Positions 1-56,258 of a DNA stretch of 64,000 nucleotides are shown one piece after another. Origin of the DNA: Gavia stellata (lineage: Eukaryota > Chordata > Aves > Gaviiformes > Gaviidae); the NCBI RefSeq assembly GCF_030936135.1, contig NC_082620.1:3162001-3226000 (forward strand), given 5' to 3'. The notes beneath the pieces were generated by a model, which searched no databases, was not told the origin of the DNA, and saw nothing but the letters and a program-made list of their open reading frames with translations. The position numbers and the translations under genes were made by a program. Each line of letters starts with the position of its first letter. The first letter of the stretch is position 1.

Positions 1-569
1 TCCCCAATTAACTCAGGCCTCGTACTGCTGCTCTTGCAGATGAGGTTCTGCCATGCCCACTGAATATATGCTGAATCCCCTCACGGAGACCTTGATCTCT
101 GCCTGTTTTTCCAGAGCTTTCCTCTAACTCTTCCCTCCAGCTCACTATGTACCTAATTTGTACTTTTTACCTAAATAAAATAAAGTCATTCTTTGGAGCT
201 TATCAAATGGACATCACAAAGAGCCTGACTGTAATTCACAGGAGTATTTAATCCAAATCATTCCACAGACATCATTTACATAGAAGTAAATCATCCAGTA
301 ATTAAATACAAGGAATAAATCAGGTGCTGATTTGAAGGAAAAGGGATTGAAACACAGCACGTGGAAAATATTAAAACTGTAAAGACTGAACTGTCAGTAG
401 TCTCAGGAGGACAAAGACCAGTGTTCAGAGAGTATTTAAGTTCATGAATATCAAACTTGGTATTTTACACATCAAAGTGTATCACATTTTTGCTGACAAG
501 TACTACCTGAGGTTTGGGAGCCTAAACGGAGACATTAGTGGGAGAAACATAAAAGAGGGAAAGTTGTTT
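1..569. other. 3' flank of gene A; possible end of another plus-strand transcript
   Basis: On the minus strand, ATTAAA (plus 247-252) lies about 320 nt past the gene A stop and could be its poly(A) signal. On the plus strand, overlapping AATAAA signals at 174-184 follow a pyrimidine-rich stretch ending in CTTGCAG near 40, which may be the terminal exon of a gene further left. That second reading is only a guess. Confidence 0.3.
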
Positions 570-3500
570 TTACAGGCCTTTTATGAATTTAACAGTTCTG
601 TCCAATCCCCTTTTCCCAGCTGGAAATGAGAAACCGCAATAATCATACAGGCTTATGATTCCATGGAATCCATCCTCAAGGTGGTACCAGGTCACTCGAA
701 CACCATTGTCCTCCAGTCTCTTCTTGTAAAGCAGGCCGTCGTCTCGTAACACATCATACTCACAAGTCAAGATGAAAGATTCGGGCAGCTGATGAACAAT
801 AGCATCTTCAGCTAACAGCGGACACAGGTTGGGCTCACAGAATCTTTTAACTTTCTCAAAAACTTCAGCCTTGAATTTACAGGGCTTGTGTGGTTTGTAG
901 CCTCTGACCTTAAATTTTTCAGGGATATTATCTGGACTCAGCCACTTCCTGTACTTCAGCCTCACATCTGGAGGAATATGAGAGCCCTCCAAGAGCTCTT
1001 GCACATGCAGCGCATCCCCATTTAGATACTGCAAAGCAAAGAAAGCGGCACGTTCTCGGAATAAGAGAGGGACTCCTCGATTCTGCTGATAGGATGGTAA
1101 ATTGAAGTCCAGTGCCTGAAGGCCTGGGTAGATCAAGATCTGAGCACGTAGTTTGGGGAGGTCTGATCTCCCTGCAAGGGTCTGGCTAACAGCAGCTGCT
1201 AGGTTGCCCCCAGCACTGTCCCCGCAGACAATTATACGGGCAGGATCCACTCCATAGTCCTCTATATTCTTCATAAAGTGTATGGTGGCATTAAGACAGT
1301 CTTCATACGCAGCAGGGTATTTGTGTTCAGGAGCTAAACGATACCTAGTACACAAAAGGAGACAACAAAAGTGTGAGAGGGAAATGTCATATCTGTAAAT
1401 ACAAATTTCCGACAGCACCTTGGTTTTCCTGGTGTTGCTTGGAGTATTTTTCCTTCAGCAAAAAAATACAGTGTTGTTACGTGATAAACAGTTATTTGTC
1501 CAGCGAGTTATCACAGATAAACGATAGCTAGTAGGATGAAGTTGCAAGGACATAGCATAGTTGGGATTTTCTTTTGAGAACAGCACTGATCACAACTTGA
1601 GTGATACAAGTTCATGTTACTCTTCTGGTGTAGACTGCATCTGGCTTCTGGATGAAGTAATTTCATCAGTCTGCACTTCACCTTTACTTAGGATATTTCC
1701 TCTTGAGAATTGTTTTATTTTTCCTTTGTTTATTTAAATAAAGTGGGACAGAGTTATATTTTTCTGTATTATTAGTATTAAAATATATTAGCATTTGATT
1801 CTTACTGTTAGAAAACTCCTTGAGGTTTACAAGGTGATTACATAAATTAAACAGATCACTGAATCACCACCTTCCAGCTTTGTTTATTAGTTCTCAACAT
1901 GTAAGAAAACTCTCCTGGAAAGCATTCCTTCTTTTTGTGTGGTGCCAGCATAGCTCTGTGTGGTGAGATACATGAACCTTACTGGGGGGTCTGCTTGCAC
2001 TCCCCCTGCGTTAGCAGAATGGGAGGGAAGAAATGGAAATAGTCCCCTTGGAATTCTGCCTGACCATCTGGGATCCTGGGGAAATGGTTTACTGAGGAGG
2101 AGTGTTCCCACAAGACGTGCAACGCTGTGGTGCTGAGAAGTGAAAAGAAGCAGAAAGACTTCCACAGGGTAGTACTGACGTAACTCACCCAACGGACACA
2201 ACCACCGACTCGCTTTCTCTGGCAATGTAACGGCAGATCTTTTCATGGGAATCTGCAAAAAGTTGTGGGGTTGTTAGCTGCCCGCTCCGTTTCCAGATGC
2301 AATAGCCGAGGAAGGTGGAAGCCCCCTTTTCCCGCTCTGGCCGTGCCCTTCCCGGCCCTCACGTGCCCCCTCACCTCCCCTGGTCCCTCTTTCCCTCAGC
2401 CCTGCCGCCTCCCCTCAAGGCAGGTAGCGGTGGTTCAGCGAGAGCACTAAACTGGCCGAAGACTACGGAAAGCTCAGCCAGATTTCAGACCTTCTGCCAG
2501 GTTTCGGGGCAGAATTCTTCCCCCCGCCTCCAGAAGAGAACAGCGGCAGCGCTCAGCTGCGCTGCGAGGAGAGAGAGAGGGGGGAACGACCCTACCGATG
2601 CTGCAGTACAGCCAGCCGCCGCCGTGGAAGAAGATGGCGCCCGCCCGCAGGCCGGCAGATGGGGCGCGGGGCCGGTAGACCCTCACCGGCACCCGCCCGA
2701 ACCGCGCGTCCCGCAGCGAGAGCTGCGGGTCCGGCCCCAGCTTCGTCCCGGAGCGCACGTAGCGGGTGAAGGCGATCTGGCTGCACACCCCCGTCTTTTC
2801 CAAAATCTTCCCCTGTTCGAAGAGAGGGAGGAGGGCCCGGCTGAACGGAGGGCGGCCTCCCCGGGGGCAGCCAGCAGCCGCGGGCCGCCTCGGGGGAGGC
2901 TGCCAGACACCACGCCGGGCAGGTTGCCGTGAGGGAGACCCCGCGCCTGCCTTCCGCCGGCTGCTGCGAGGCCTGAGGGGGCAGCCAGGCTTCGTGTTGG
3001 CGGGGGTCAGCCTGCTCCAGAGCCGCTCGCCTCTACCCTCGCCTTTAGCGGCCGCTCCGGTTTGGTCCTCACCAGAAGGCTGGCACCGGAGAAGATGGAG
3101 CCGTGGCGGTCCCCTGTGAGGCTACGCGCCTGGGTGAGCGGGGTTGCTTTGGCACCGTGCGCCTGAGCAGGTAGGCCCACGCGTCCGACTCACGCTCCGT
3201 CAGGCACAATGTCTTAGAGGAGAAAAAAAGGTGATTCCTTCTCAGCATCACCAGGTCCTTTGGTTTCATATCAGCTTCCCACCACTTACTGGCTTACAAC
3301 CCAGATCTCGTTCCTGTAAGGTTTCCCCTGAGTCTCTGGTGTTAGCTGCTTAAGAAGCACCCAGCCTTCCATCAGTGTTACTGGAGAGCCTCAAGAACAG
3401 CCTAAAATCATCTGTGCTTAGCTAAAATGGAAATCAAAATCTCACTTTTTATAAATAATTAATTTAAATTGAATTAAGGAAGCTCAGCTGATAAAGCTTG

Positions 3501-3907
3501 GGCTCTTATGGTTGGCTTTGTCCCTCTGTAATAGGGAAAACCTGGCTGAAACTGTGTGAGGTCTAACAAATGATTTTACAAAAATTGTCCTCTAAAGGCA
3601 GCCCCCAAAAAAGGAAAGCCTTCATTTAAGTCTTGATGCAGCCAGCAGGATTCTGGTATTTACACATATAACCTTACAAAATTAACAGCTAAACCACATT
3701 TCTGGCAGAAATCATGGCAGAGTAACTCACCATAGCAGATGTACTAATGATAGCAGCAAGGACAATTCGAAGCTTTCCAGGATGATTCACTCCAGGAGGG
3801 ATACTGAAATTGGAGTACTCCGATTGAATTGTTTCCATAACTGCTAGTATGAATGAAGCAGTAAAAATCACCAGCAGTATCACTGGCAGTATATAAAAAA
3901 ATGCCAT
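570..3907 (-). CDS. AADACL4-like: AADACL gene A: arylacetamide deacetylase-like esterase, four exons
   Basis: Coding exons, in transcript order: 3731-3907, 2596-2812, 2189-2252, 570-1344 (177+217+64+775 nt, 410 residues; human AADACL4 is about the same length). All junctions are GT-AG and the phases are 0, 1, 2. Residues about 3-23 are a hydrophobic signal anchor, as in type II ER-membrane AADAC proteins, followed by IPPGVNHP. HGGGW (His about 122) is the oxyanion-hole motif of the hormone-sensitive-lipase family. GDSAGG (Ser 196), the Asp of EYDVLRDDG (350) and the His of GFHG (380) form the expected triad. There is an N-A-T glycosylation sequon near 171. Known of the family: hydrolysis of ester or amide bonds in small lipids and xenobiotics at the ER lumen; the substrate here is unknown. 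Odd points: exon 2 is very GC- and CpG-rich, unlike the other paralogues, and reads GGGWLYCSI where gene B has GGGWVFGSL. The 5' part of exon 4 is nearly identical to gene B. Confidence 0.9.
2300..3130. other. CpG-island-like block around exon 2 of gene A
   Basis: About 830 bp of strongly GC-rich, CpG-dense sequence (many CCG and GCG triplets and a GCGGCCGC near 3049) sits inside otherwise AT-rich DNA and covers exon 2 of gene A (2596-2812) with parts of both introns. Exon 2 of the four paralogues lies in ordinary AT-rich DNA. Long open frames seen here on both strands are a by-product of the scarcity of stop codons. Confidence 0.7.
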
Positions 3908-5080
3908 TTCACTTAATCAAAGGTGAGGTGTCTTTACGCCTATCTTTGATTTAGCTTTCTCAGATAACAGTAAATCTTAGAGCAGTCCAAGTTACAACAG
4001 ATCTCTCAGGTGCCACACGCTTTAAAGTCCTTGGAAATGTTGTGCAAGGTGCCAGCACACATCACACTGGAGAAGAGTCAGAGGAGAATGTGTTTAATTT
4101 CCTGTTTAGCTTCACATTAATTGTGGGACTGATACGGGGCCTGGTATTCTGCATGGTATTCTTGGATTGCGGATGATGTGAATGACTGTTCGGAGATAGC
4201 CGTTAAGTACTGAATGAAGTTCGAGTTTATGACGGGTTGCTATTTACAAGGAGAGCCAACTACTGTGGAGATTAAATTGTCTCTTGCAGCTGATCTGCAG
4301 CCTCAACATATTGCTTCCTGTATTGTGGACGTTCTTTAAGTAGTTTGGTATATGTAGTTTTAACAAGGACATTTAGAAAAGAAAATGGGAAATAACATGA
4401 GGGTGAAAAAAGCTAACGTGTGCTCTACAAAAGTGAATGCATCAATCTTATCTTGTTGTTAGAGTATTTAAGCACTGGAAGAAGTTTTTAAGCATAGGAC
4501 AACACTTAGAGCATTTCCTCCATTGTAATTTACACAAAGTTGTTAATAGGGAGTATCTCTGTTGGGCACAATTGCAGTTTTGACTTCACTTTTTCAAGTC
4601 TAAAATACCAGCTACCTAGCCCATAGAAATTTTCTGCAAGTCGGTGACTGGGAATCCTAGACTCGGATGCTATCTGTAGCGTATAGCACAGGTACTGCGT
4701 TACAGCATTGTAATATCAGTATCTTTCTCCTTTGCCAAAACACACTTAGCCTTCTAGGAAGAATGAAACCATAGATCATAACTGAATAAAATGGGTCAGA
4801 CCACATGTTGATTTAAAATTTTACTGCATCTTTAATACTTACTGAGAGAGTAGCAAGTGCCTAGTCCAAATAGATCATTAAAATAGGCAGACTGCACATG
4901 GAATACTTCAAACAGCACTAAAAGAAACTTTCATAGCATTCTTGAAATATCTTTTTCAGTGGTCACACTGACATAATTACTTATTAACAAATTGTCCTAT
5001 CTAAACGTCTTACATGGAATTTAGAAGCATAAAAGATCACAGAGCATTGGCAGTTCTTATAGAAGGAAAGAAAATTGGTT
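3908..5080. other. Intergenic A-B: gene A upstream region and gene B 3' flank
   Basis: The gene A upstream segment at 3941-3966 resembles 9569-9594 upstream of gene B; both contain TCTTTGATTT followed by CTTTC[T/C]CAGATA. This suggests that the duplication included the promoter. A minus-strand ATTAAA (plus 4831-4836) about 245 nt past the gene B stop is a candidate poly(A) signal. Nothing else is recognisable. Confidence 0.45.
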
Positions 5081-8000
5081 CTATAAGCTTTTTAGAAAGT
5101 TCACAATATTGTCAAGACCCCTTTTTCCAGATGAAAATGACAACCAGTCACTATTAAATGAATTTATGATTCCATGGAATCCATCCTCAAGGTGGTACCA
5201 GGTCACTCGAACACCATTGTCCTCCAATCTCTTCTTGTAAAGCAGGCCGTCGTCCCTCAGCACGTCATATTCACAAGTCAAGATGAAAGATTCAGGCAGC
5301 TGCTGAATCAGAGTGTCTTCGGCTAACAGGGGACACAGGTTGGGGTCCCAGAATCTTTTCACTGTCTCATAAACTTTGGTTGTACAGTCAAGTACCACAT
5401 GTGGTTTGTAGCCTCTGACCTTAAATTTTTCGGGGATGTTATCTGGACTCACCCACTTCCTATAATTTAATTTAATATCTATAGGAATATGGGAACCCTC
5501 CAAGACCTCTTCCAGATTTGATGCGTTCCCATGTAGGTACTGTAACATGCAGAAAGCGGCACATTCTTGGAATAAGAGAGGGACTTTCTTATTCTGCTGA
5601 TAGGATGGTAAATTGAAGTCCAGTGCCTGAAGGCCTGGGTAGATCAAGATCTGAGCACGTAGTTTGGGGAGGTCTGATCTCCCTGCAAGGGTCTGGCTAA
5701 CAGCAGCTGCTAGGTTGCCCCCAGCACTGTCCCCGCAGACAATTACACGGGCAGGATCCACTCCATAGTCCTCTATATTCTTCATAAAGTGTATGGTGGC
5801 ATTAAGACAGTCTTCATACGCAGCAGGGTATTTGTGTTCAGGAGCTAAACGATACCTAGTACACAAAAGGAGACAACAAAAGTGTGAGAGGGAAATACTA
5901 GTTTTAAATGTATTGCTGAAAATACTGGTTCCTGCGTCCAGCTATACCCTGATTACTTCAGAATTTTCCCTTTCTCCACAGGTTGTCATAAATAAACTGC
6001 ACTAGTTGGACCAGGTGGTGCAGATTAACTTGTTAGGATATCATCTGTTCAGGACATTTCTTAGGTCTTTAACAGCACAGGAGTGCTCAGCTGCCAACTA
6101 TGTCTAGGTTTTATTGACAGTCATTTAGTCAGTTTATGCTTTAGCTTTCCATGTGTCAGATACAAATGACAATAATTCCGGTTTATGTCTTTGTTACAGT
6201 GCAACTATAACCTCATGATCCAAATCGTTATGTCAGTATATTGATGATGATATTAGCTTGTCATTCGCATAGTGCTTCTGTAAGCATCAAGCAGAGTTTC
6301 CTTGAATAAGGATTAAGTAGAATATATGGCTCACTATCTGTTTATTACCAGTTTTGAGTCTGGAATTTGAAAACATTGATTGACAAGTCCCACAGAAACA
6401 TTTCTCTGAGAATGGTTGTTGCTGTGAGCAGAGAGGCTATAAGGTGATATTTACACTATAGGAAATAATCTCTAAAAAACAGCATGAGGAAAGACTCACC
6501 CAACAGATACAACCACTGATTCACTTTCTCTGGCAATAAAGCGGCATAGTTTTTCATGGGTCTCTGAAAGAAACATATTTGGTGGGGTTTGGGTTTGTTT
6601 TGGTTTGGGTTTTTTTGCCAGAGTACTAATGTCTATTGCATAAGTCAAAGAATTGCAAGAAGAAAACACTATCTACTTTTCTCTGCCCCTTCCTACATAG
6701 CTCCTCAGATTTTGTACCCCCTCATCTTCCTATTTCAGTATTTGCTTACTGTATTTTTTCCCCTCATATCTCATTGTCCTTGTCTGTAAGAAAAATGCAC
6801 ATAATGCACAGCAGATGCTTTCTTCTGACAGCAAGACTTAGGAGAGTGCATCTGTGGTTATACTCAAACTTCGTAACTGCTACAGGTCAAGCAACAATCA
6901 ACTTTACCATCTATGAAGTAGATACTTCTTTAACTAATTTATAATATTTTTTCTGTTAGATATCTTACCAAGGCTTCCAAACACCCATCCTCCTCCATGG
7001 AAAAACATGACTCCTCTCCTTTGGCTGGCAGATGGAACCTTAGGCTGATAAATCCTCACACGTACTTTCTCAAACCACAGGTCCTTGATGAAGAGCTTCG
7101 GGTCCACTCCTAGAATCTTTCTACTTTCAATGTACCGGATAAAGCTAACCTGACTGCAGATGCCAATATTTTCCAAAATCTTTCCCTGTTCAAAGGCAAA
7201 GAGAATAGGGACTTCACTCAAGAGACTGTATTTTCCAAAGTAAAGTAATCATATGGACAGTATACTCATGATGTCTAAGTCGTATATTTTAGGGCAGTCA
7301 TAAAATATTTGAGTAGTTGTACGGGTATAGTACAACTGAACAAATAACAGTAGCATCATGACAGGTCACATGAACAGCAGTGTTCACCAAAGACCATAGT
7401 CCCAAAACAATGCAGCATTAACAAAGACTGGTGAAATACACCCCTTTGCTTTCCCAGCGGGTCCTTTACCTAGCATTGAAAATGAGTTTGGTTTTCACCG
7501 TTTATTCCGTCCTTGCCCCTGAGCAGATGTGAAAACATTAGCGAAAGATGATAGTTCTGGTGCTGATTTTCATGATATGGATACTTGCCCAAAATAGATT
7601 TGACTAAGTTGAGAATATATTTGATAATTGCTTTTTGATTCATCTCGGAAGTCTTCACTGATGTGTGCAATACACTGACAAGAAGGTCCTGGGCTATTTA
7701 GTACGCCTAAACTTCCGTTCTTTCTGTATGCCGTAGTGATATTCATGCCAGGCACAAGAAGATGAAAACAATACAAATGAGAGCTACTGGTCCAACATAA
7801 CTTTGCAAAAATAAAAAAAAGACATCATCTCTGTTTTGAAATACATTACTTAGTCATGCCAAACTAGGACTTCGATCCTTATGAAGATTTGGATTGGGCT
7901 CTTAATATTCAATATTTTGTTATGAATATTTCTTCTTAGACTGCCACATTTGTATGGATTGTCAGTAGGGTGTTATGACTCAATATATTTACCTATGAAA

Positions 8001-11797: not shown

Positions 11798-14700
11798 TTA
11801 TAAACTGTTTATATAATTCACAGTACTATACATTATCTTTTTTCCAGATAAAAAGGAAAAAATCCCATAGCCAAAAAAGGCTAAAATTCCGTGGAAACCA
11901 CTCTCAGAATGATACCAGGTCACTGGAACACCGTTGTCCTCTAATCGCTTCTTGTATAATAGTCCATCATCCCTAAGCACATCAAATTCACAGGTCACAA
12001 TGTAGGATTCAGGGAGCTGGCAAATAATGGAGTCTTCAGCTAAAAGTGGGGAAAATGTTATTCCTAAAAGTTCTTTGATTGCTTCATGGACTTCAGGTTT
12101 ATACGAAGTGGATTTCTGTGGTACATAGCCTCTAATCTTAAATTCGTCAGGAATAATGTCAGCACTTATCCATTTTTTATATTTCCGTTTCATACTCTCA
12201 GGAACATGGCGATTTTGTAGGACATCTTCCATAAATGATGGTTCTTTATTAAGATAACGAAAACAGAAGTACATAACTAGCTTTCGAAACAACATGGGGA
12301 CAGAAGCATTCTGCTGATAGGAAGGCAAATGAAAATCTAGCCCCTGTAGTCCTGGATAAAGTAAGACCTGAGCACGTACTTTTGGGAGGTCTCTTTTATT
12401 CAGCAGTATTTGGCAAATAACCGTAGCAAAATTAGCTCCACAACTGTCACCACTAATGATGATGAGAGCAGGATCCACATGATACTCTTCTAAATTCCTC
12501 ATAAAGTATAAGGTGGCATTGAGACAATCAAAATATTGCCCTGGGTATGGGTGTTCAGGAGCCAAACGATAACTGAAATGTCAAAGATATTGTGGTTATT
12601 GTCAAAATATTTACAAAAATTTAATCTGCATTGTTCATGATTGACTGATATGGTAGTTAGGTAGGCCTTTTTTTCTAAATTTTAAAGATTATATATCTTT
12701 TTAACTAGTGTAGATTGGAAAGACAAACTAATGGTCTTACAGCTATTTTAGTATACTTTGCCTATAAGCACATTTCTAAATTAAATGAAAGGCTAAAGCG
12801 AAAAATGGGGAGCACAATCTAAAATAGTAAATATTTTCAGCATAGTTTTCAGAAATGTTTCAAGTGTGGACTGTATTACCACCAATACTTCTATGTAAAA
12901 GTAGCACTTACCCAACAGACACAACCACTGAGTTGCATTTTTTGGCAATATAGCGGCATATTCTTTCAAAGGCTCCTAAAGAGAAAGTTTATCAGAATTG
13001 TTGTTTTAAAAATCAAATATCCTTTTGAAATGAAAATGTAGATCCTTGAACATACGCTGTGTGGAAGGCACTGCAACCTGAAAACCGATGAGTAACTTGT
13101 GCTATGCAATGTGGTCTTTACATGTTAACGTATTTTCTGGTTATTGGTCAGTGGCTGTTAGGGCATAATATAAGCATGTAAGAATGGTAATACTTGGGAA
13201 AAAATAGAAGTCTGTCTAGGCTCATATCACATCTCAGCTAGTGGTCAACAAAAGATGTCTAAGGAGAAGCATAAGCTGAAGACAAGCATATAGTACTAAG
13301 AAGCATACAAGAAGTTGAGGCTCAGAGCACTCCTTTGAAACAGAAACTGTGTCTTTATATTTAATGCTCTTCATTAATGTTTCTTCCCTGAATTATTTGA
13401 ACCACTTCTCAAACCCATGATTTTAACATTAACAACTTTTTGCAGCGAAGAATTCCATAGCTTGCTTACAAAGGTGTAAAGAGCAATTTTTATTTGCTCG
13501 TTTTGTACCTGGCATTCACTACTTCCATTTCGTGACATTAACTCTTGCACTGTAAGAAATGGTGGATAATTATTCCCTGTTTAACTTCTCTTGCTTCTCA
13601 TGATTTTGTAGACATTTAGTGTATCTGTCTTTATCTGTCTTTTCCAGCTTGAAGAGTCATAGTCTATTCACTTATTCTCCGTACAGAAGCACTTTTCTCA
13701 CCTATGCAGCCTCTCTCTGAGTCTTTCCGATACTGCTTTATCCCTCTTGAGGTATGGGAACCAGAACTATAAGCAGTATACTATATTTAGATGCACCATG
13801 GATTTATTACAGCGGCATAAAGAAGTTTCCTGTTTTTTCCTTTCCTAATAATAATAACTAGCATTGTATTTGCTTTTTGACTGCTACTGTGCACTAAGTC
13901 AACTTTTTCAGGCAATTTTGTACCATAATGCCAAGATTATCTTCCTGCAAGGGAGTAGTCTGCTTGGAGTCCGTTGTTTTATTTATAAAGTTAGGATGCT
14001 GTATTCATCTTTCTGACTTCTCAACACGCCTTTTCACCTCACATTTTATTGTCTAATCTTTTTCTATCATAAAGATATTCCGCAGTTTTTCAGTCATCCA
14101 TTTACTACCTCGAAGGACTTAGTATCATATCAGCTTTCACCATCTTTTCTGTTTTTGAATATATTGATTAGCACTGATCCCAGCACAGATGTCCTTATGG
14201 GAATCTCACAGGAACCTCCCACAACCCATCTTTTTTCTGTCTTTTAATCAGTTTTTATCCAAACGAGAGACCTTCCCTCTTGTGTCATGGGTGTGTAGCC
14301 TCTTTAAGAGACTCTTTTGGAAATCAAAGTAGGTTTTATCAACTCAGTCTCCTTTATTCATCTATTTTCTGACTCATTTAAAAAGCTTACACTGATTTGT
14401 GAAGCATGACTTCCATTTGTATGGATTTTAAGGAGTAAGTCATATTTATCTGTCCACTGATTCTGTTCTTCATTGTAGCTTCTGCTAATTTGCTAGTTGC
14501 AAACTTCAGGCTTACTAGTGTGTAGATTCTCCAAGTCCTTTTAAAAACTTGTCATTATGTTATTTGCTTTCCTGTTACCAAGTACCAACGGGAATTCAAA
14601 TGAAAGGTCACGTACTACAGTCAGTGTATCAGTATGGGTATTACATTAAGCCACGGCATGTGATATAGCTCCCTCAGTGTGCTGATTGTGCCACAGCAAT

Positions 14701-17085
14701 TGTGTTGTGAACAACAACTACAAGTATGCAACTTTGTGGTGTGTTTTTTTTCTTTCAGCGAAAGGAATTCACCTTTCACTTAGATCATATAGGCTTATCT
14801 CTTGAGTCCTCACTGCCACCCAAACTAGCTCTAGAACTAGAAGCATCACAGCTGGTGTCAGCCTGACACTCCACCCAGACTAATGTGCTCTGCAGTAAAA
14901 CAAGGGTAGATTATTTCTGCCACAGTGCAAAATGGGACCTAAGTTACTAGAAGTTACATTAATTTTTCTGCGTGATGCTAAACGGAGCCAGGTAGACTCT
15001 CAAACTCATTTGCAGGTAACTAAAGTCTGCCTAACATAGTGCTAGTGGAGACTTACCCTTTGAAACAGTAAAGGATTCAAAACCCACACACTTCCCTGTC
15101 GGACCCCTGAAACGAAATCTAGCTTTCCATGTTAGGTGCCTTGGCTTCCAGACAAAGCACACACAGACGTGGTTGCTCAGAAAGAGATCCAGAACAGTTA
15201 GGAGGCTGAGCCAGTAGCTACTGAGACAATCAAAGGGTTGTCTCTCTTTCTGAAAAAGAAATAAAGTATTCTGTGCAGTGTTACCACAAGAATCAAACTC
15301 CCCAAAATTGGTTCTATATTTAATGCTCATTTATTAACTATATTTTCCTTCATTTTGATTCCTTGTTTGCATGAATGGGAATATATTTACAGATTTTTTT
15401 TATGTATTCTTTAAATTCTTTCTTGGACCATGTTATATCTTTTAGACTTCTTTTGATGTATGGACTGCAAATTGAGAAACAGTGACTTTTGCAGTGTTTC
15501 TACACAGAAGTTGAGTGCTGAGCACAGAAGTATATCTTAAATTCTGTACTTTGAGGCCCTATCCAACACTTTAGTCCAGTTGAGATCCAAAACTAAAAAT
15601 TTCTCCTTGAGAAGTTACCAAAGCATTGTTCCAAAGAATGAAGCCAGAATGTATTCTTTGTAGCAACAGCATTGCCATTTCCATGATACTGTAATTATTC
15701 CAGAAAGTAGACCTAGGCTGAGTTCCGTATCAGCCTAAAAGGATTTTAAGTTACATTTCCAGAAAAGATGGCATACAGAGGAGAAGGAGGGAAGAGACAT
15801 GGATTACAACCCTTACTCCAGAACTGTTGCTATATCTTATTTTCAGCCAGCCATTAGTTAAGGTACAAGAACATCCTGTGAGCTGAACTTCCCTCACAGT
15901 GACCTGAGCATATGTGTTTTGTTTGGATGGTCTGTCTTTCTCTGCCCCAGCAAATGGAATCTTTCTCAGAACAGCTTCAACAGGAGGAGGAGCAGAGTCC
16001 CTCTGCCATTAGCTGACAGCAGATTGAGAGGTTTCTGGATCACAGTTCTGGATTTAGGACCCTCAGATCTCCTAAGAGCTGCTTTCATCAACATCGCCTG
16101 TAGCCTGAAGGAAGTAGAAATGTGATTACCCTTAACTGTGTGCTAGACTATTAATTCCGCAAGGTGCTTTGCAGTTAGTATTGAGATTGCAAAGACTATT
16201 GTCATTAGGGAGGACAGGTGAGATATTGACTGACACATGTCTGAAGGTAAAAATGTAAAGCTTTGGATTTGATTTTAAAAATAAAACTTGCTGATTTCTT
16301 ACTAATGCTCCCAAATGTGCCAGCGCCTCCATGAAAATACAGTATTCCTCTTCTTTTGCCAGTAGGTGGCCATTTAGGCTGATAAATCCTCAATGGTACC
16401 TCGTCTACTTTGAGATCTTTGATAAGAAGCTTTGAATCTCTCGGTGGTGGTATTCCATCTAGCACAACTCGTAATAAGCTTAAATCACTGCAGATCCCTA
16501 GCTTCTCAAAAATCTTTCCCTGTTGAAAAGAAAGAATTCGAAAGAAGAGAGTAATGTAGGCTTGCTTCTGAATAGATAGAATTATTACATGTACATGCAG
16601 TTCAATAGGTACAGTATACATAAAGCTTTTTTTTTTCCATTTTCATGTGAAACACGTCTCCAATGTAAAGTGGCTGCAGTTTGACAGATGCACTGAAAAA
16701 TCTAAATAACCTTTTAAGATTAGTCATATCAGTTTTATGAGTTAATTTAACATGATTTGGTTCATCTAACAATGCTTACAGGCTTCAGGGGGGTGAATTG
16801 CTTCTCCTTCTTTTCTTTTTTTTCTTAAGCCATTATCTTCCAGCTCCCAAATATCCTACCAAAATAAAATTGAAATCCCCAGTTTTAAGAAAGTTAACTT
16901 ACCGCAAACATGGTTGTAATCAACAATGAATGGAAAAAACGAAGCTTTAGAGGTTGGTCAATTCCAGGTGGCAGTTCTGAATGGAAAAAATCATAAAACA
17001 CCCCCCCCAAAAACAGTGCTGGTATTATAACAGGAGACATGAAAACCATTCCTATTATTGCTAAAGTTGTATAAACAGATGCCAT
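11798..17085 (-). CDS. AADACL4-like: AADACL gene C: arylacetamide deacetylase-like, altered oxyanion motif
   Basis: Coding exons: 16903-17085, 16303-16519, 12912-12975, 11798-12572 (183+217+64+775 nt, 412 residues), all GT-AG. Exon 1 starts MASVYTTLA, has a signal anchor, then SELPPGIDQP. A run of eight G on the coding strand in exon 1 reads through in frame. The oxyanion motif is HGGAG (His about 124) instead of HGGGW, and the nucleophile elbow is GDSCGA (Ser 198) instead of GDSAGG, with Asp 352 in EFDVLRDDG and His 382 in GFHG. Catalytic residues are therefore present, but two positions close to the active site differ from genes A and B. An N-A-T sequon lies near 173. The codon across the exon 2/3 junction is Arg (A|GA), a trait shared with genes D and E. 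Likely a membrane esterase of changed specificity; reduced activity is also possible. Confidence 0.88.
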
Positions 17086-24959: not shown

Positions 24960-27900
24960 TTACATCAATCTTAGAAAATTTACTATCTTTTCCAGGCCTT
25001 TATTTCCAGATCGGAATGCTACCAGCTCACCGCAAAGAGCTAAGAATACTGTTCCATGGAATCCCTCTTCCAGATGGCACCAGGTCACTTTTATACCATG
25101 ATCCTCTAATCGTTTCTTGTACAGCAGCCCATCATCTCTAAGCACATCCAACTCACAGGTCAAAATGAAAGCCTCAGGAAGTTTAGCAATAACACTGTCT
25201 TCAGCTAGCAGTGGTGAAAAAAAGGGGTCAAGCATAGACTTGACCAGTGTATAGAGTTCTTTTGAGAATGAATTGAATCTTTTTCTTGGTTTGTAGCCTC
25301 TTGTTTTAAACTCTTGAGGGATGTAATCAGGATTCACCCATTTCTGATACTTCAGTTGCAAATCTTCTGGAATATGACAACCGTTAAATATTCCGTCCAT
25401 GATTGACAAGTCTTTATTAAAATACTTCAAACCAAGAGCAAGGGTTCGTTCCTTTAACAAAATGGGGACTCCGTGATTCTGCTGATAAGAAGGCAAATTA
25501 AAGTCCATACACTGGAGAAAAGGATATATTAGGATTTGTGCTCTTAGCTTTGGGAGATCTCTTCTGTTCACCAGTGCTTGGGCAACAGCAGCAGTGAGTG
25601 TACCTCCACTACTATCTCCACAGATGATAATGCGAGAAGGGTCTACTCCATAATCCTGTGCAGTCCTCATAAAGTGTATGGTGGCAGTGAGACAATCCTC
25701 AAACTGGGTTGGATATGGATGCTCAGGAGCTAAGCGATACCTAAATAGGAGTGAAAGTGTTTTAACATAGTCACATCTAGTGAACGATCCCGTTGTCATC
25801 TTTTCATTCATGTATTTCATTCAGAAGATATGAAAATATTCCGAGATTATAATTACAGAGGTAGAATTGATCGTAATTATTGCTTTTGATGTATTATTTG
25901 CTACTATTGTTAAAGTTTGGGGGAGTAAGCACACTATTCTATCTTTGCAAAATACTTCTTTACCTATCTTTTAGGTGACTGAAGGCACAGGCTGAGTTAT
26001 TGTAGAATTAGATGGCAAGGCAGGTATGTATGAATCAGTTAGCAGCAGTTCTAGTTAGAAATTGAAGTGAACGTTTCCCAACAAATTGTTAGAAAATACA
26101 AGCGTAGAAAATTGATAATGAAAGTATGAAGAGTTTTCAGTGGTTTTCTATAAGCTGAATTCTTTATACACAGAACCAATAAGAGTTAGTGGTTCTTCAA
26201 GTAGTTTAGGATGTAAGTAGTAATTCCTGCAATTTTAGTCAATTTCCAAGACATCAACTCTTTTCCTGAACTTTTAAAACTTGGTTGTTTTAAAAATGCA
26301 TTACAGCTTATCAGAAAAATATTTTAAATGTTCATCTCAGGTTGATTGCAAGTTAAATGTGGATATTCCCCACCAGTTTTTCAGAACTGCTAGTAAAAGG
26401 AGTATTTAGTACTCTGGGCAACTGTGCTTTTAACAGAAACAGTTACATTTCAAACACAGTGTTGGCTTTCAACTTAAGGTTATTTGGATACGGGTTTAGG
26501 AAACAAAAACATCCTCACCTATTAATGGTGGCTACAAATTATGAAATTATTATAATGGATTTTATTTAGAAATAAGCAAGTGAGGATTAGTTGACTAATT
26601 CTTCCTAAGAGTAATTAGTGCTGGTGAAATGCCTGTGATCATTAAATATATGTGCTTTACAAGGAACTTGGCTTGAGGTCGCTATGCCTTGAAGACTTAC
26701 AAACCTAGAAGGAGGCACAAACGGCTATCATATTGTGTGTCTGGATTGACTCCACTTACCCAACAGACACAACCACTGAATTGCTTTTTCTAGCGAAATA
26801 GCGGCATGTTCTTTCATAGGCCCCTGTAAAAAAAAATATTTCAGTGGAATTGTAACTTGCTTTAAAAATAAGTTGAATGAAAATACTCTGAATGAAAATA
26901 CTTCTCTCTATTCTGTGATTAATGCTACACTGTAATTCTCTTATTGTGGCATGGTCTAATCTGGACATTGCTCACAATTTCATTAAGTCTGTGGGAATCT
27001 TCTTGCCAGTAAGAAACCTGGAATTTACACCAATGCATTGTTTCAGCCTCTTTGAAAAGTTAGTTAATAGAAAGTGCTACTGCTGCCACTTCTAAAGTGG
27101 TATTGAAGATTAGAAGTTACTTAAAAAACCAAAAACCACAAAAAACCTTACTAAATCTAGCACAAGAATTCTTGTGCATGAGCCACCATCTAATCTCTTA
27201 TGCCTTTCCATTTCAAATGCCAAAATGTATTTTTTCCTTGTTTTGCCACTGTAAAGACACACAGCAGTATACAGACATACACACAAGCTTGCACACACAT
27301 GTGAACACAAATCGGGATCTTTAAAATAAGAAATAAAATTCTAATGAGATTTGCAACTTTTCTCGTAAGCATTAGGGAGAAGAAGGAAGAAAACAGGTAT
27401 TCTAAATGATCAGAGAATAAAAGTTATAGATACACAACCTCTATAAAGACAATTTAACATGATGCCTAGTATTTGTAGTTACAGCTCATATTATATATAT
27501 TACTTACGAATGCTTCCAAACTGTCCAACGCCTCCATGAAGATAAACGATTCCTCTTCTTTCACCAGTGGTTGGTATTTTTGGCTGGTAAATTCTTACTT
27601 TAACCTTTTCAAACCTTAAGTCCCTGATAAAAAGATGTTTGTCTTTTAATGGTGGTATTCCGTCCATTGCAGCCCTGAGGAAATAGACCTCTGAGGTGAT
27701 ACCTAGTTTTTCCAAAACTTTTGCCTGTTAATAAAGGGAAGGAACAACAAATTAGTGCAAATTTCCATCCTAGCTGGAGATTGATCCTGAAAAATTTAAA
27801 ATTCCATGGTCAATTCAAACTTTGTCTCCTGATGGTTCTTAAAATGAAGTGGCCAGTTATGATCATGCTTTGGCTATATCTTCATTCTAGTGTACTACCT

Positions 27901-37274: not shown

Positions 37275-40200
37275 TTAATAGCCTTTTATAAAGTTTACAA
37301 TGTGGTTTGCCATTTTCCTTGATGATGGAAAAGAGAAAATACCATAACCAAAAAATCCCAGTGCACAGTGGAAGCTTTCTTCCATGTGATACCAGGTCAC
37401 TTTTACGTTGTTGTCCTCTAACCGTTTCTTGTACAACAACCCATCATCTCTGAGCACATCATGCTCACAGGTAATTATACAAATATCAGGTAGGCGGCAA
37501 ACAACATCATCTTCTGCTAACAGCGGGGAAAGTCTTGTCTCAAACAGTTCCTTTGTTTTTTCATGGACTTGAGGTAAAAATAAAGTCGGTAATGGTGGTT
37601 TATAGCCCAGTTTAAATTCCTCCGGGATAAGATCTGGATTAATCCATTTCCTATATTTCATATTAATACTATCAGGAACATGAGAACCTGCCAAAATAGC
37701 TTCCTTCATAGAGCAATCCTTTTTCAAGTATTTCAGCATAAAATGGACTGCACGTTCCCGGGACAAGAAGGCAGTGAAAGCATTTTTCTGGTGAGATGGC
37801 AGATTAAAGTTCAGTGCTTGGAGAAATGGATAGATCAGTACCTGCGCACGTATCCTTGGGATATCTGTTCTATTTACCAGTTCTTGGCAAACCCTAGCAG
37901 TAAAAGTACCCCCTACACTATCTCCACAAAGAATAATCCGATCAGGGTCCACCCCGTAGTTTTCTGCAGTCTTCAAAAAGTGTACAGTAGCAGTGAGACA
38001 GTCCAAAGTTTGGGTGGGATACTTATGCTCAGGAGATAAACGATACCTGAAATGTGCAAAAGACAGCAATTACTACAAATACGTATATTTGTAAATTGCT
38101 TGAATGTGTCATCTTAAATACATCCATGGATTATGTATTTGCAAAAACTCACCAAAACCAGTATTACTTATTTAAAGTTTTGCATGCTGAAGCAAACCAG
38201 AAGCTTCCCCTCCCATTTCTGTGAAAATACAGAGACCATTAATCATTTAGGTTTATTCTAGCATAATTTAAGAGCATGAGGGCTTGAGCAGTGCAGTCCA
38301 GTCCGATCACCCACATTGTACAAAGCCACACATCTACTCAATTCCTCATCTGAGTGCACCTGCCTGGCATCAGAGTTCATGCCAGCAGGGAAGTCTGCAG
38401 TTCTCTCATTTGGACTGACCTTGCATGTGTGTATAGCTGTGAGTCAATCCTGCTTACCCACAATGTCCAGCCAAGTTCTGGCTCCTGAGCTTTTTACACT
38501 GGGGACACTGATTGTTGTGTCTTATGTATTAGCACAGTATTGTGTATTATTATTACATTTTAATATAAAAAGAGTAATTTAATAATACATTATAAAACAC
38601 CATACAGTAAGTGTACTGTGGTGACAAAATAGCTTCCTGTAGACAATTCTTCCATGTATTTTGTTAATTGGAACAAGGGAATTACAGAGAAATGATGTTA
38701 AAGTAACAATCTCTTTGTTTATTTCTTAACTGTTAACAACTTACTTTCATACGATGAAAAGCAAGGCAGGCATAACGGTCAGATACCCAGTCAAAGTGAT
38801 GTAATCTGATTCCAACGACATATAAGACTACTTTGAGACTACATTTTTAACAGCCATGGTTCTTTATTCTCTGTTTTCGTGTTCTTAGGGCTTTCTGGAG
38901 AAGGTTAACGATAAATACTACAAAGGTAACAGTGCAGGCATTCTCTCTTAACCCTTCACTGTTTGCTGAGGCACACTGCTTCTGCTTTTCTGTTTTTTCA
39001 CTATTCTTTGGAATTAATTAAATGGATTCATAAAGTAAACATCCTAATAACCAGGGAATAAAAGGATATCAGTATCTTATTTCAGAGTCACTTTAAACGC
39101 ATCATGACTTACCCAGACGGGATATGGAATAGGCAATTCATTCTCAAAACCAATTTCTCAAAACCAATTCCTCCCAACTTAATAAAATTCTTTAGTAATG
39201 AATTTTTTCGTGGAAGAATTTGTTGGAAACTAAAGTTTTTTCATACCATCAGCTATTTTCCATAAGCAAAACATCTTTAAAAGGAAGCAGTGGTCCATGC
39301 AGTTTTAAAGAAAATATTACACTTTAGACTTATTATTTACTCTCTAAAATCATCCCCAAAGCCCCCTAAATATTAAAACCTGAAATTGGGAAAACAGCTT
39401 ATAATTCCTTATTATTGAACAAAGGCAATGATTTTTGCGGCAATAACAATGTAAAATGAACAAATCTCTTTGTTCTTCTGAAAACAGCTGGCATAGATGT
39501 TACTTTTGTAACTTTATAACCCTGTATCAGGTATTTCTCATTGTCAGTTCATGGCACATGCTTGCTCACACATATCAACACATAGGGGTAGACAACACTA
39601 GAGCTCAGTTTCTTTTCTTATATTCAAAGACATGGAAGTACAGAGTGGGCATGGGTCGGGGGGAGGTATGGGGGAAAGCAGCGGAACTATCTAATACTGG
39701 GAGTAACATTGCGTGGAGCTCACTTACCCAACAGACACAACCACGGAATCAGATTTTCTGGCTATGTACTGGCATATTCTTTCATAGCTTCCTGAAGAAC
39801 AAATGTTGTTAATGTAATTAATATCTTAGAATACTTGAAGCAATATCGTCCCTTATTTTTTATGGCATATTGCCATGATTGAGTGCGGGCCCCTAGCCTG
39901 TTCAGTGAGTTACCCAAATTTTCTCTAGGATAAAAATAATCTAGTCTTTTGATCATCAGGACACACTGTAAAGTTCATACATTTAGGGAGATTGTTGATT
40001 CGTAAGAAAAATAAGGAATTATTATTATTATTATTATTACTATTAGAGATGGGACAATGGTTTTAAACTGAGAGAGGGTAGAATTAGATTGGACATAAGG
40101 AAGACATTTTTTATGATGAGGGTGGTGAGACAGTAGAACAGGTTGCCCAGAACAGGATGCCCCATCATTGGAAGAGTTCAAAGTCGGGTTGGATGGGGCT

Positions 40201-43200
40201 TTGAGCAACCTCATCTAGTGAAAGATGTCCCTGCCCATGGCAGGGGGGTGGGACTAGATGATCTTTAAGGTCCTTGCAGAGGGATTTGGACAGGCTGGAT
40301 CGATGGGCTGAGGCCAACCAGATGAAGTTCAATAAGGCCAAGTGCCGGGTTCTACACTTTGGCCACAACAACCCCAGGCAACGCTACAGGCTTGGGGACG
40401 AGTGGCTGGAAAGCTGCCAGGCAGAAAAGGACCTGGGGGTGTTGATTGACAGCCGGCTGAATATGAGCCAGCAGTGTGCCCAGGTGGCCAAGAAGGCCAA
40501 GGGCATCCTGGCCTGTACCAGAAATGGTGTGGGCAGCAGGAGCAGGGAGGTGATCGTGCCCCTGTACTCGGCTCTGGTGAGGCCGCACCTCGAATGCTGT
40601 GTTCAGTTTTGGGCCCCTCACTACAAGAAGGACATTGAGGTGCTGGAGCGTGTCCAGAGAAGGGCGACGGAGCTGGTGAGGGGTCTGGAGCACAAGTCTG
40701 ATGAGGAGCGGCTGAGGGAGCTGGGGGTGTTCAGTCTGGAGAAGAGGAGGCTGAGGGGAGACCTCATCGCTCTCTACAACTGCCTGAAAGGGGGTTGTGG
40801 GGAGGGGGGTGTTGGTCTCTTCTCCCAAGTGACTAGTGACAGGACAAGAGGAAATGGCCTCAAGTTGCGCCAGGGGAGGTTCAGGCTGGATATTAGGAAA
40901 AAGTTCTTTACCGAGAGAGTAGTGAAACATTGGAATAGGCTGCCCAGGGAGGTGGTAGAGTCACCCTCCCTGGAGGTATTCAAGGAGCGTGTGGATGTGG
41001 CATTGTGGGATGTAGCTTGATGGGCATGGTGCTGTGTGGTGTTGGGTGGGTTGGTTTTTGGTGTGTTGTGGTTTGTTTGTTTGGTGGGTTTTTTTTTTTT
41101 GGGGGGGGTGGTTTTTTTTTTTTTAGGTTGGACTTGATGATCTTACAGGTCTTTTCCAACCTTAGTGATTCTGTGATTCTGTGATTTTGTCCCTTCCAAC
41201 TCAAAACATTCTATGATTATTACGCATAATTGCTTAGAGTGGTTGTAAGGGATAAAATGGCTTGAGATCTTTGTAAAAGTTTATTACATTATTTTAATTA
41301 ACTGTGAGTCTGAGACTGACTTAGGTATGTCATATCGTTTTGCTGTGGAAATGCTAATTGTAGCTAAGTCTAAATTAATTTCGTATTTGAAGCAGAGATT
41401 TGACTATTTTCTGAAGAATGAAGGGTGCAGCTGGTATGCCCCCTGCGAAGTCAGTATATTTCTTTGTGGCTAATTCAGGCAGAAATCTGAGTTTTCCTTC
41501 AACCTTAATTCTGAATTTGCTGCATTTGGAAGATTTGGTTTACAGGTATTTGCTCAATGATGTGTTCTTTCAATCACAGAATTGTAACGCCATTTAATAT
41601 GTGTGCATGTCTACTGCCTGTAGAAACAGTATATTTTAGAACTTTTTAAATTATGTGTTGGCATTTATCTACTTTCTCTAATAAATTAAACTGGAAAAAA
41701 AGACAACATAACTAAACTACATGCATCATGGACACACTTTTTAAAATAGCTGCTATAGGCTGCTTGAATTGCCATGAACACTGTTTATAGAAGTCCCAAT
41801 AAACATGCTGCAGTTAGAGATCAAAGGGAGGAATGCAGCTGTTAATAAATTCTGTCGGGTTTTCAGACAAAAAAAAGAATTTATTTCTTTAGCAGCACCA
41901 CTTTCTCTAAGGAATATATGTGCCATAAAGAGTGCTGTATCCTATAAAAAATAATTTAACTACTAAATAAGAGCGGATTAGAGAGTTTAAAAAGTAAAAA
42001 TAAACATTAAATGCTTTCTATCTCTCAATCTCTCAAACTAAGCTTCAGTCACTTCTTAGGTTCAGGAGAGTTTTTAAAAATACGTAGTTAACAATCCTAA
42101 ATTATCAGATTTTCTCTTTCAGTTCCTTACTGATGCTTCCAAACATCCCGCATCCTCCATGGAAGAAGACGACTCCTCTCCGTTTGCTTGCAGATGGTAC
42201 TCTTGGGAGGTAAATCCTCACTGGCACCTCATCAAAATGCAGATCCTTTACGAAGAGCTTTGAATCCCTGCACGCCGGCAGTCCATCAACAATCAACCTC
42301 ATAAGTTTGTGCTCCTCAAAGATATTCAGACTTTGTAAGTTCTTTGCCTAGACAGATGTAACAGGAAAAATGAGAAATTAGTATAGGGAATTCAAGTCTT
42401 CCCACTCTATAAAGGCCCAAGCTACCTTTTTCTATACTATATTCAAGATAATTGCATTGGTTACTTGCTACTTTAGAGGATTACCACAAATAGCACTAGT
42501 GGCTTTGGTTATGAAAGTGAAAATGTACATCTTCATGATTTGAGGTACCATTATTTCTGGAAGAATGTTGTAATACTTGTTCCATGGAATGTATTATATA
42601 AATACCTTCTAATTTCTGTGATCTGTATTTACCCCAAGTAACATCAGGCATTTGCTTAGGTATGGAAGTTAGGAGTCATGAGGCCTGAGGCTCCTTTTCT
42701 AATCAGTGAAGAGAAGGGCATTTCTTGGGGATGGTTCCAATTTCAGGTGTGTTAAATCATGCTCTGGAGATGTCTGTTCATCTCCATTGATAGTAAAGGG
42801 AGGCTGTGTGCTTCAAATGCCTCAGTTAAAGTATTTAAGGTCAGGTGAGATGAAAATGTCCCTAGCATGACAGCATTTAGTATACTGTGAGAAAAAGACT
42901 CAGGCCAGTGTGCGTGCAAGATTGGGTAACTTAATGGTTTTGGGTCATCTCTGTGCCACAGGGTCAGTGAGAACAACCTTTAAGAAAATCATTAGTGCCT
43001 ATAATCAATAATGAGGGGCTGCTGGCCTACATGAAGAGCTGATGAAAATGGTTCTGAATCTCATCTCCTCCTCCATCAGTGAAACTGTTGCCTTTTTTCA
43101 AGATCTCACAGGTATTCATGAAATGGCTCTGCAGCCAGTTTCTTACATCTAATCAGGGAAAACAACTATTTTGAAGACAGGGGAGGTTTGTTAAATGTGT

Positions 43201-56063: not shown

Positions 56064-56258
56064 ATGATTTGGAAATGGCTGGGCGCTTTGCTGCTTTTCC
56101 CCGTGCAGATGGTTTATTTGGTGGTGAAAGCTGCCGTGTGCGTGGTGCTGCCGCCCAAGCTGCGAGACCTGTCCGGGGAGACCGTGCTGGTCACCGGGGG
56201 GGGCAGAGGCATCGGTCGCCATCTGGCCAGGGAGTTTGCCAAACGAGGAGCCAGAAAG
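56064..56258 (+). CDS. DHRS3: DHRS3 coding exon 1 (retinaldehyde reductase, partial gene)
   Basis: This exon encodes the first 65 residues of DHRS3 (retSDR1), the NADPH-dependent short-chain dehydrogenase/reductase that reduces all-trans-retinaldehyde to retinol on ER and lipid-droplet membranes. The start [19 protein letters not shown] closely matches, from memory, human MVWKRLGALVMFPLQMIYL. Residues 6-29 are the hydrophobic membrane-targeting segment, PPKLRDLS follows, and TGGGRGIG (44-51) is the Rossmann dinucleotide-binding motif. The exon ends GCCAGAAAG at a GTGAGC donor in phase 0; the human protein also continues after ARK. The ATG has G at -3. The rest of the gene (catalytic Asn, Ser, Tyr, Lys) lies beyond the right edge of the window. 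The gene is divergent from AADACL gene E. Confidence 0.95.

Follow-up and report, generated by a model that had tools for sequence, protein, structure and literature searches.

The window, which is the whole 64,000-nucleotide stretch of DNA analysed here, holds a tandem array of five minus-strand genes, named A to E. The exon-4 proteins of all five belong to Abhydrolase_3 (PF07859), as each of them (5/5) matched the profile with 120–143 bits against a curated cut-off of 25. The exons that were compared are as follows.

570..1344, minus strand: gene A exon 4, coding through the stop codon (Abhydrolase_3; first base from codon phase)
5081..5855, minus strand: gene B exon 4, coding through the stop codon (Abhydrolase_3; first base from codon phase)
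11798-12572, 24960-25740 and 37275-38046, minus strand: last exons of genes C, D and E (first base from codon phase)
2183..2261, minus strand: gene A exon 3 core
6494..6572, minus strand: gene B exon 3 core
2594..2812, minus strand: gene A exon 2 as compared, with HGGG (GC3 0.93; ends approximate)
6967..7185, minus strand: gene B exon 2 as compared, with HGGG (GC3 0.49; ends approximate)

Genes A and B carry the motifs HGGG in exon 2 and GDSAG, DVLRDDG and FHG in exon 4, and are predicted esterases on these sequence features. Among solved structures, the chains that scored highest with exon 4 of gene A are named as esterases or carboxylesterases, such as Est8 (4ypv) and EST2 (1qz3). A and B each also matched seven bacterial NCBIfam equivalogs, LipP1 and chloramphenicol hydrolase among them, and in no case was the cut-off reached; LipP1 scored 161.5 and 156 bits for A and B, respectively, against a cut-off of 350. 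The two genes are old tandem copies of a four-exon, probably AADAC-like Abhydrolase_3 esterase. We take the likely name of the array to be the AADAC-like 4 (AADACL4) cluster beside DHRS3, assuming that DHRS3-AADACL4 is a known gene neighbourhood. A plus-strand frame with TGGGRGIG was observed at 56193, which in our opinion resembles the start of a DHRS3-like dehydrogenase.

The other three genes differed in their motifs. For C, D and E, the oxyanion motif in exon 2 (16301-16519, 27506-27724 and 42129-42347) reads HGGA, HGGV and HGGC, and the elbow in exon 4 reads GDSCG, GDSSG and GDSVG; these variants may alter activity. A 252-aa open frame at 40262-41020 had no Pfam match but looks like the terminal part of a reverse transcriptase from a CR1 LINE, in keeping with an avian origin of the DNA.

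Exon 4 of genes A and B could be aligned without gaps at an offset of 4511, and this alignment contained a stretch of near identity that continued into intron 3.

1080..1385, minus strand: proposed conversion tract in gene A, of which 1080-1344 (265 bp) belong to exon 4 and 1345-1385 (41 bp) to intron 3
5591..5896, minus strand: proposed conversion tract in gene B, matching the A tract at 305/306 bases
1209..1223, minus strand: GDSAG nucleophile elbow of gene A, within the tract

The earlier note had described these 306 bp as identical except for one base, and our gap-free count of 305/306 agrees with it, the sole difference being T at 1235 versus C at 5746 (Ile/Val). The borders of the tract were obtained by likelihood change-point segmentation, with two to eight segments, over the 816 bp in which A and B align without gaps. 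Positions 1080 and 1385 were selected as borders in every one of these segmentations, and the best BIC was given by seven segments. At either end the first base outside the tract differs; on the exon side the tract abuts a run of five mismatches at 1075-1079, and on the intron side alignable similarity stops where the tract ends. The description of an identity that runs 41 bp into intron 3 and then stops abruptly was therefore borne out. The 41-bp intron tail contains a run rich in pyrimidines as well as the acceptor AG, after which comes a G. The GDSAG motif, whose catalytic role in gene A we assume from the HSL/AADAC family, falls inside 1080-1385, and so the tract does span the elbow of the catalytic Ser, as had been noted.

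Synonymous and nonsynonymous differences between the two copies of exon 4 were counted by the Nei-Gojobori method for the tract and for the remainder of the exon. The tract had 0/60.8 synonymous and 1/203.2 nonsynonymous differences, whereas the remainder had 44.7/109.8 and 63.3/397.2, giving a dS of 0.59 and a dN of 0.18. Where A and B encode the same degenerate amino acid, their codons were identical in 86/86 cases within the tract versus 92/118 outside it (Fisher p 2e-7, with borders picked post hoc). The longest run of identical codons, 95 of the 204, gave a permutation p of 2e-5, and this value needs no borders.

The GENECONV analysis proposed in the earlier note took the form of a GENECONV-style permutation test on the five genes and their ten pairs, and not of the GENECONV program itself. 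For A-B, the longest unbroken series of matches at polymorphic sites covered 82 of 455 sites and was not reached in any permutation (0/20,000; p 5e-5), which is significant. With silent sites only, the A-B run was 37 of 80 sites (p 5.5e-4). Conversion was not significant in any of the nine other pairs, which included C, D and E; their lowest p values were 0.17 for all sites and 0.46 for silent sites.

If the catalytic core had been under strong purifying selection since an old duplication, this too might preserve a segment of this kind, given that the tract includes the GDSAG elbow and the splice acceptor. In the columns of the tract, however, only 43–61% of the same-amino-acid codons were identical in the nine other pairs. 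Synonymous codons vary freely there, which demonstrates that the tract codons are not constrained. Nor did the acceptor tails found in C, D and E resemble the tail shared by A and B, with local scores of 5, 7 and 7 where identity would score about 40. The statement that selection on protein cannot explain identical intron sequence holds; there are 0 differences at 60.8 synonymous sites and the intron tail is identical at 41/41 bases. We therefore give purifying selection next to no chance of being the explanation.

The part of intron 3 that lies past the tract was compared between the two genes.

1386..2182, minus strand: gene A intron 3 past the tract (797 bp), collinear with intron 3 of gene B
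5897..6493, minus strand: gene B intron 3 past the tract (597 bp)

A local alignment spanned about 475–480 bp of each intron, with 293 of 444 aligned columns identical (66%). Its score of 34 exceeded the shuffle maximum of 29 (0/300 shuffles, z 5.7), and a second scoring scheme likewise gave 0/300. Cruder shuffles were passed by the last 200 bp (23 vs 18), the last 600 bp (34 vs 32) and the whole sequence (34 vs 28); for the last 400 bp the score of 25 was below the shuffle maximum of 28. None of the nine other pairs had significant similarity in intron 3, the nearest being A-E, for which 18/300 shuffles equalled or exceeded the score. Intron 2 of A and B displayed no similarity to each other (score 12, shuffle maximum 15). 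The sequence comparison thus makes A and B sister genes with an aged intron 3 in common, in which the 41 bp at exon 4 are young. The residual homology of 66% shows that the intron has been diverging for a long time and that just its last 41 bp were reset.

No alignable similarity was detected in the 109 bp (A) and 74 bp (B) of intron 3 that adjoin the tract, and an indel in this zone is possible. A fresh insertion as the cause of the abrupt intron end was not favoured, as the two introns are collinear and neither had a match elsewhere in the window at E 1e-3. Tandem repeats were not found at the borders of the tract; the sole array in positions 1-8000 is at 6586-6617.

Outside the tract, the two copies of exon 4 were 78.7% identical in DNA (399/507) and 71% identical in protein (120/169). 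The rest of the exon had been described as far more diverged, with roughly two-thirds identity in the middle of the protein. The first part of this description stands, but the second does not, as positions 744-1079 were 70% identical in protein and 77% in DNA; only 570-652 came near two thirds in DNA (50/78, 64%). A simple recent duplication of A and B fails as an explanation; the genes are old outside the tract. In exon 3, dS between A and B was 1.13, on 12 synonymous sites only.

The divergence outside the tract was not uniform, and the best-BIC segmentation identified two patches of low divergence. Positions 889-950 had 3/62 mismatches between A and B. The other patch was nearly identical.

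653..743, minus strand: second near-identical A/B patch (1 mismatch in 91 bp; gene B counterpart 5164-5254)

This patch contains FHG (660-668), with what we presume to be the catalytic His, and terminates within DVLRDDG (735-755), whose first Asp (753-755), just beyond the patch, we take to be the catalytic one. Outside the main tract, the patch was significant by permutation with all sites (p 2e-4); it was not significant with silent sites only, in either of two tests (p 0.135 and p 0.08). Protein-level selection may therefore account for it, and as a second patch of A/B conversion it is suggestive only.

These patches also bear on the reliability of the assembly, since an assembly or gap-filling error could have copied the sequence of one gene into the other. 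The tract does, however, contain one difference, the window has no N, and both reading frames are intact over the exon border. Flanks that are 79% alike would presumably hardly cross-map, and the patches at 889-950 and 653-743 fit a natural history, although selection could also yield them. We consider an assembly error very unlikely.

Taken together, the absence of silent and intron changes inside sharp borders and the old divergence of the flanks point to recent ectopic gene conversion between A and B, to which we assign a probability of roughly 0.92 from the sequence evidence. This upholds the reading of a recent conversion tract with sharp ends, there being zero synonymous and zero intron differences inside it. 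Conversion is an ordinary process, and this locus would be a clean example of it. The gene order and the flanks of A and B are unchanged, which makes the exchange non-reciprocal, judged from the present arrangement alone. Mechanistically, we infer repair of a break: after a double-strand break within or close to one of the copies, the other would have served as the template for repair, and the copied stretch would have taken the place of 265 bp at the 5' end of exon 4 and of the final 41 bp of intron 3, including the splice acceptor. In such repair the broken copy is the recipient.

The intron border lies in a zone of low homology, which classical conversion disfavours, and could instead point to a template switch or another copying event. 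The exons of A and B are nevertheless still in their own order, so that the replacement is non-reciprocal and conversion-like, and no indel was found in exon 4 or at the exon border, the intron border being unalignable. The probability of such an event is slight, greater than that of purifying selection and smaller than that of an assembly error.

The age of the conversion could be bounded from the sites presumed to be neutral. About 100 such sites in the tract are without change (60.8 synonymous sites plus 39 intron bases, the AG being subtracted), which places a 95% upper bound of 3.0% on the divergence. Set against the dS of 0.59 in the rest of exon 4, this bound dates the event to within about the last 5% of the time since the A/B split, if the rates of the two copies are equal.

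CpG islands were searched for in 500-bp windows with GC >0.55 and an observed/expected ratio (o/e) >0.65. By this rule the window, which has a GC content of 39%, contains only one island.

2151..3350, no strand: CpG island (GC 0.64, o/e 0.74) covering exons 3 and 2 of gene A

The island takes in intron 2 and portions of introns 1 and 3 of gene A, and the same rule gave no counterpart in B or in C, D and E. This island and the near-identical patch at 653-743 are new here. Exon 2 has 60 sites with G or C in A and A or T in B, and 3 sites with the opposite pattern. At the exon 2 sites where C, D and E agree, A had 21 AT->GC changes vs 1 in the reverse direction, and B had 1 and 2. The corresponding A-strong/B-weak vs reverse counts were 9 vs 4 in exon 3 (p 0.27) and 56 vs 38 in exon 4 outside the tract (p 0.08), where the polarised AT->GC vs reverse changes were 12 to 3 for A and 5 to 4 for B. 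The AT->GC bias of A therefore fades with distance from the island. This excess is the pattern that GC-biased repair could leave, with selection or mutation bias as possible alternatives. The dN of exon 2 (0.36) is also higher than that of exon 4 outside the tract (0.18). An earlier conversion spanning all of exon 4 is not claimed from this, because exon 2 of A has a long branch of its own; exon 3, with its 12 synonymous sites, is too small a sample for the question.

The direction of the exchange is not readable from the tract. Base composition was uninformative as to the donor, GC3 being 0.45 in the tract and, for the remainder of exon 4, 0.47 in A and 0.48 in B. Birds lack PRDM9, and their recombination hotspots lie near promoter-like features that include CpG islands and are conserved for long periods, according to the available part of PMC5519329. 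We lean somewhat towards B as donor and A as recipient, the single basis being that the GC-rich island sits in A and that avian recombination gathers at CpG islands and promoters. A more far-reaching scenario, which we regard as speculative and unlikely, would make the island a long-lived hotspot of A only, with repeated B-to-A conversions in exon 4 (at the Ser elbow and perhaps the His patch), the GC content of the island driven to an extreme by biased repair, and divergence of the enzyme parts between the patches. The island beside the tract is a more interesting lead than the conversion, and this avian locus, in which conversion tract and copy-specific GC island lie about 0.8 kb apart, offers a neat test site. 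Trees or dates derived from exon 4 of these esterases would mislead, because in A and B the first third of the exon is far younger than what follows it.

Relatives of the tract were sought among other contigs, and none of the pattern matches was confirmed (0/8 in viral contigs, 0/37 in bacterial and archaeal contigs; records of the own genome were possibly omitted). Searches linking arylacetamide deacetylase with gene conversion returned no literature, those on the evolution or duplication of AADACL3/AADACL4 returned nothing on birds by title, and in the broader related literature no listed title names this esterase family. In PMC10016047 the terms gene conversion and concerted are absent. Within the literature searched, the A/B event is not in print. 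The array is probably of the same family as the chicken AADACL4-like genes, by its Abhydrolase_3 domain and the DHRS3-like start downstream, with putative orthology; the names AADACL4L3 and AADACL4L5 are used for the chicken genes in the portion of PMC7923837 that was available.

With the interlocus conversion of tandem paralogues, the event shares a short tract, sharp ends, and silent and intron identity. Most estimates of interlocus tracts range from 50 to several hundred bp, and conversion is said to be rare though possible below about 80% identity (PMC3924818, in extract). The 306 bp of the A/B tract fall within that size range. The A/B case departs from the usual one in that its surroundings are just 79% (exon 4) and about 66% (alignable intron) identical, near or past the 80% limit. 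Given this low flank similarity, either earlier conversions kept the segment alike or the repair accepted a poor match; earlier rounds in this segment would ease the problem. The vertebrate NAT family has been screened by six methods, GENECONV among them, which yielded eight recombination events spread over seven pairs of paralogues; only four of these events were recovered by at least two methods, and concerted evolution was given a minor role (PMC3601968, in extract). NAT is likewise a family of enzyme paralogues, acting on xenobiotics and different from this one, and the accessible part of that account includes no event that crosses from an exon into an intron. Avian MHC class II paralogues have been treated under concerted evolution (PMC5470263 and PMC10641522, both in extract), a view which the latter contrasts with the discovery of two lineages. 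Those are immune genes, whereas the conversion described here concerns a single pair of esterases.
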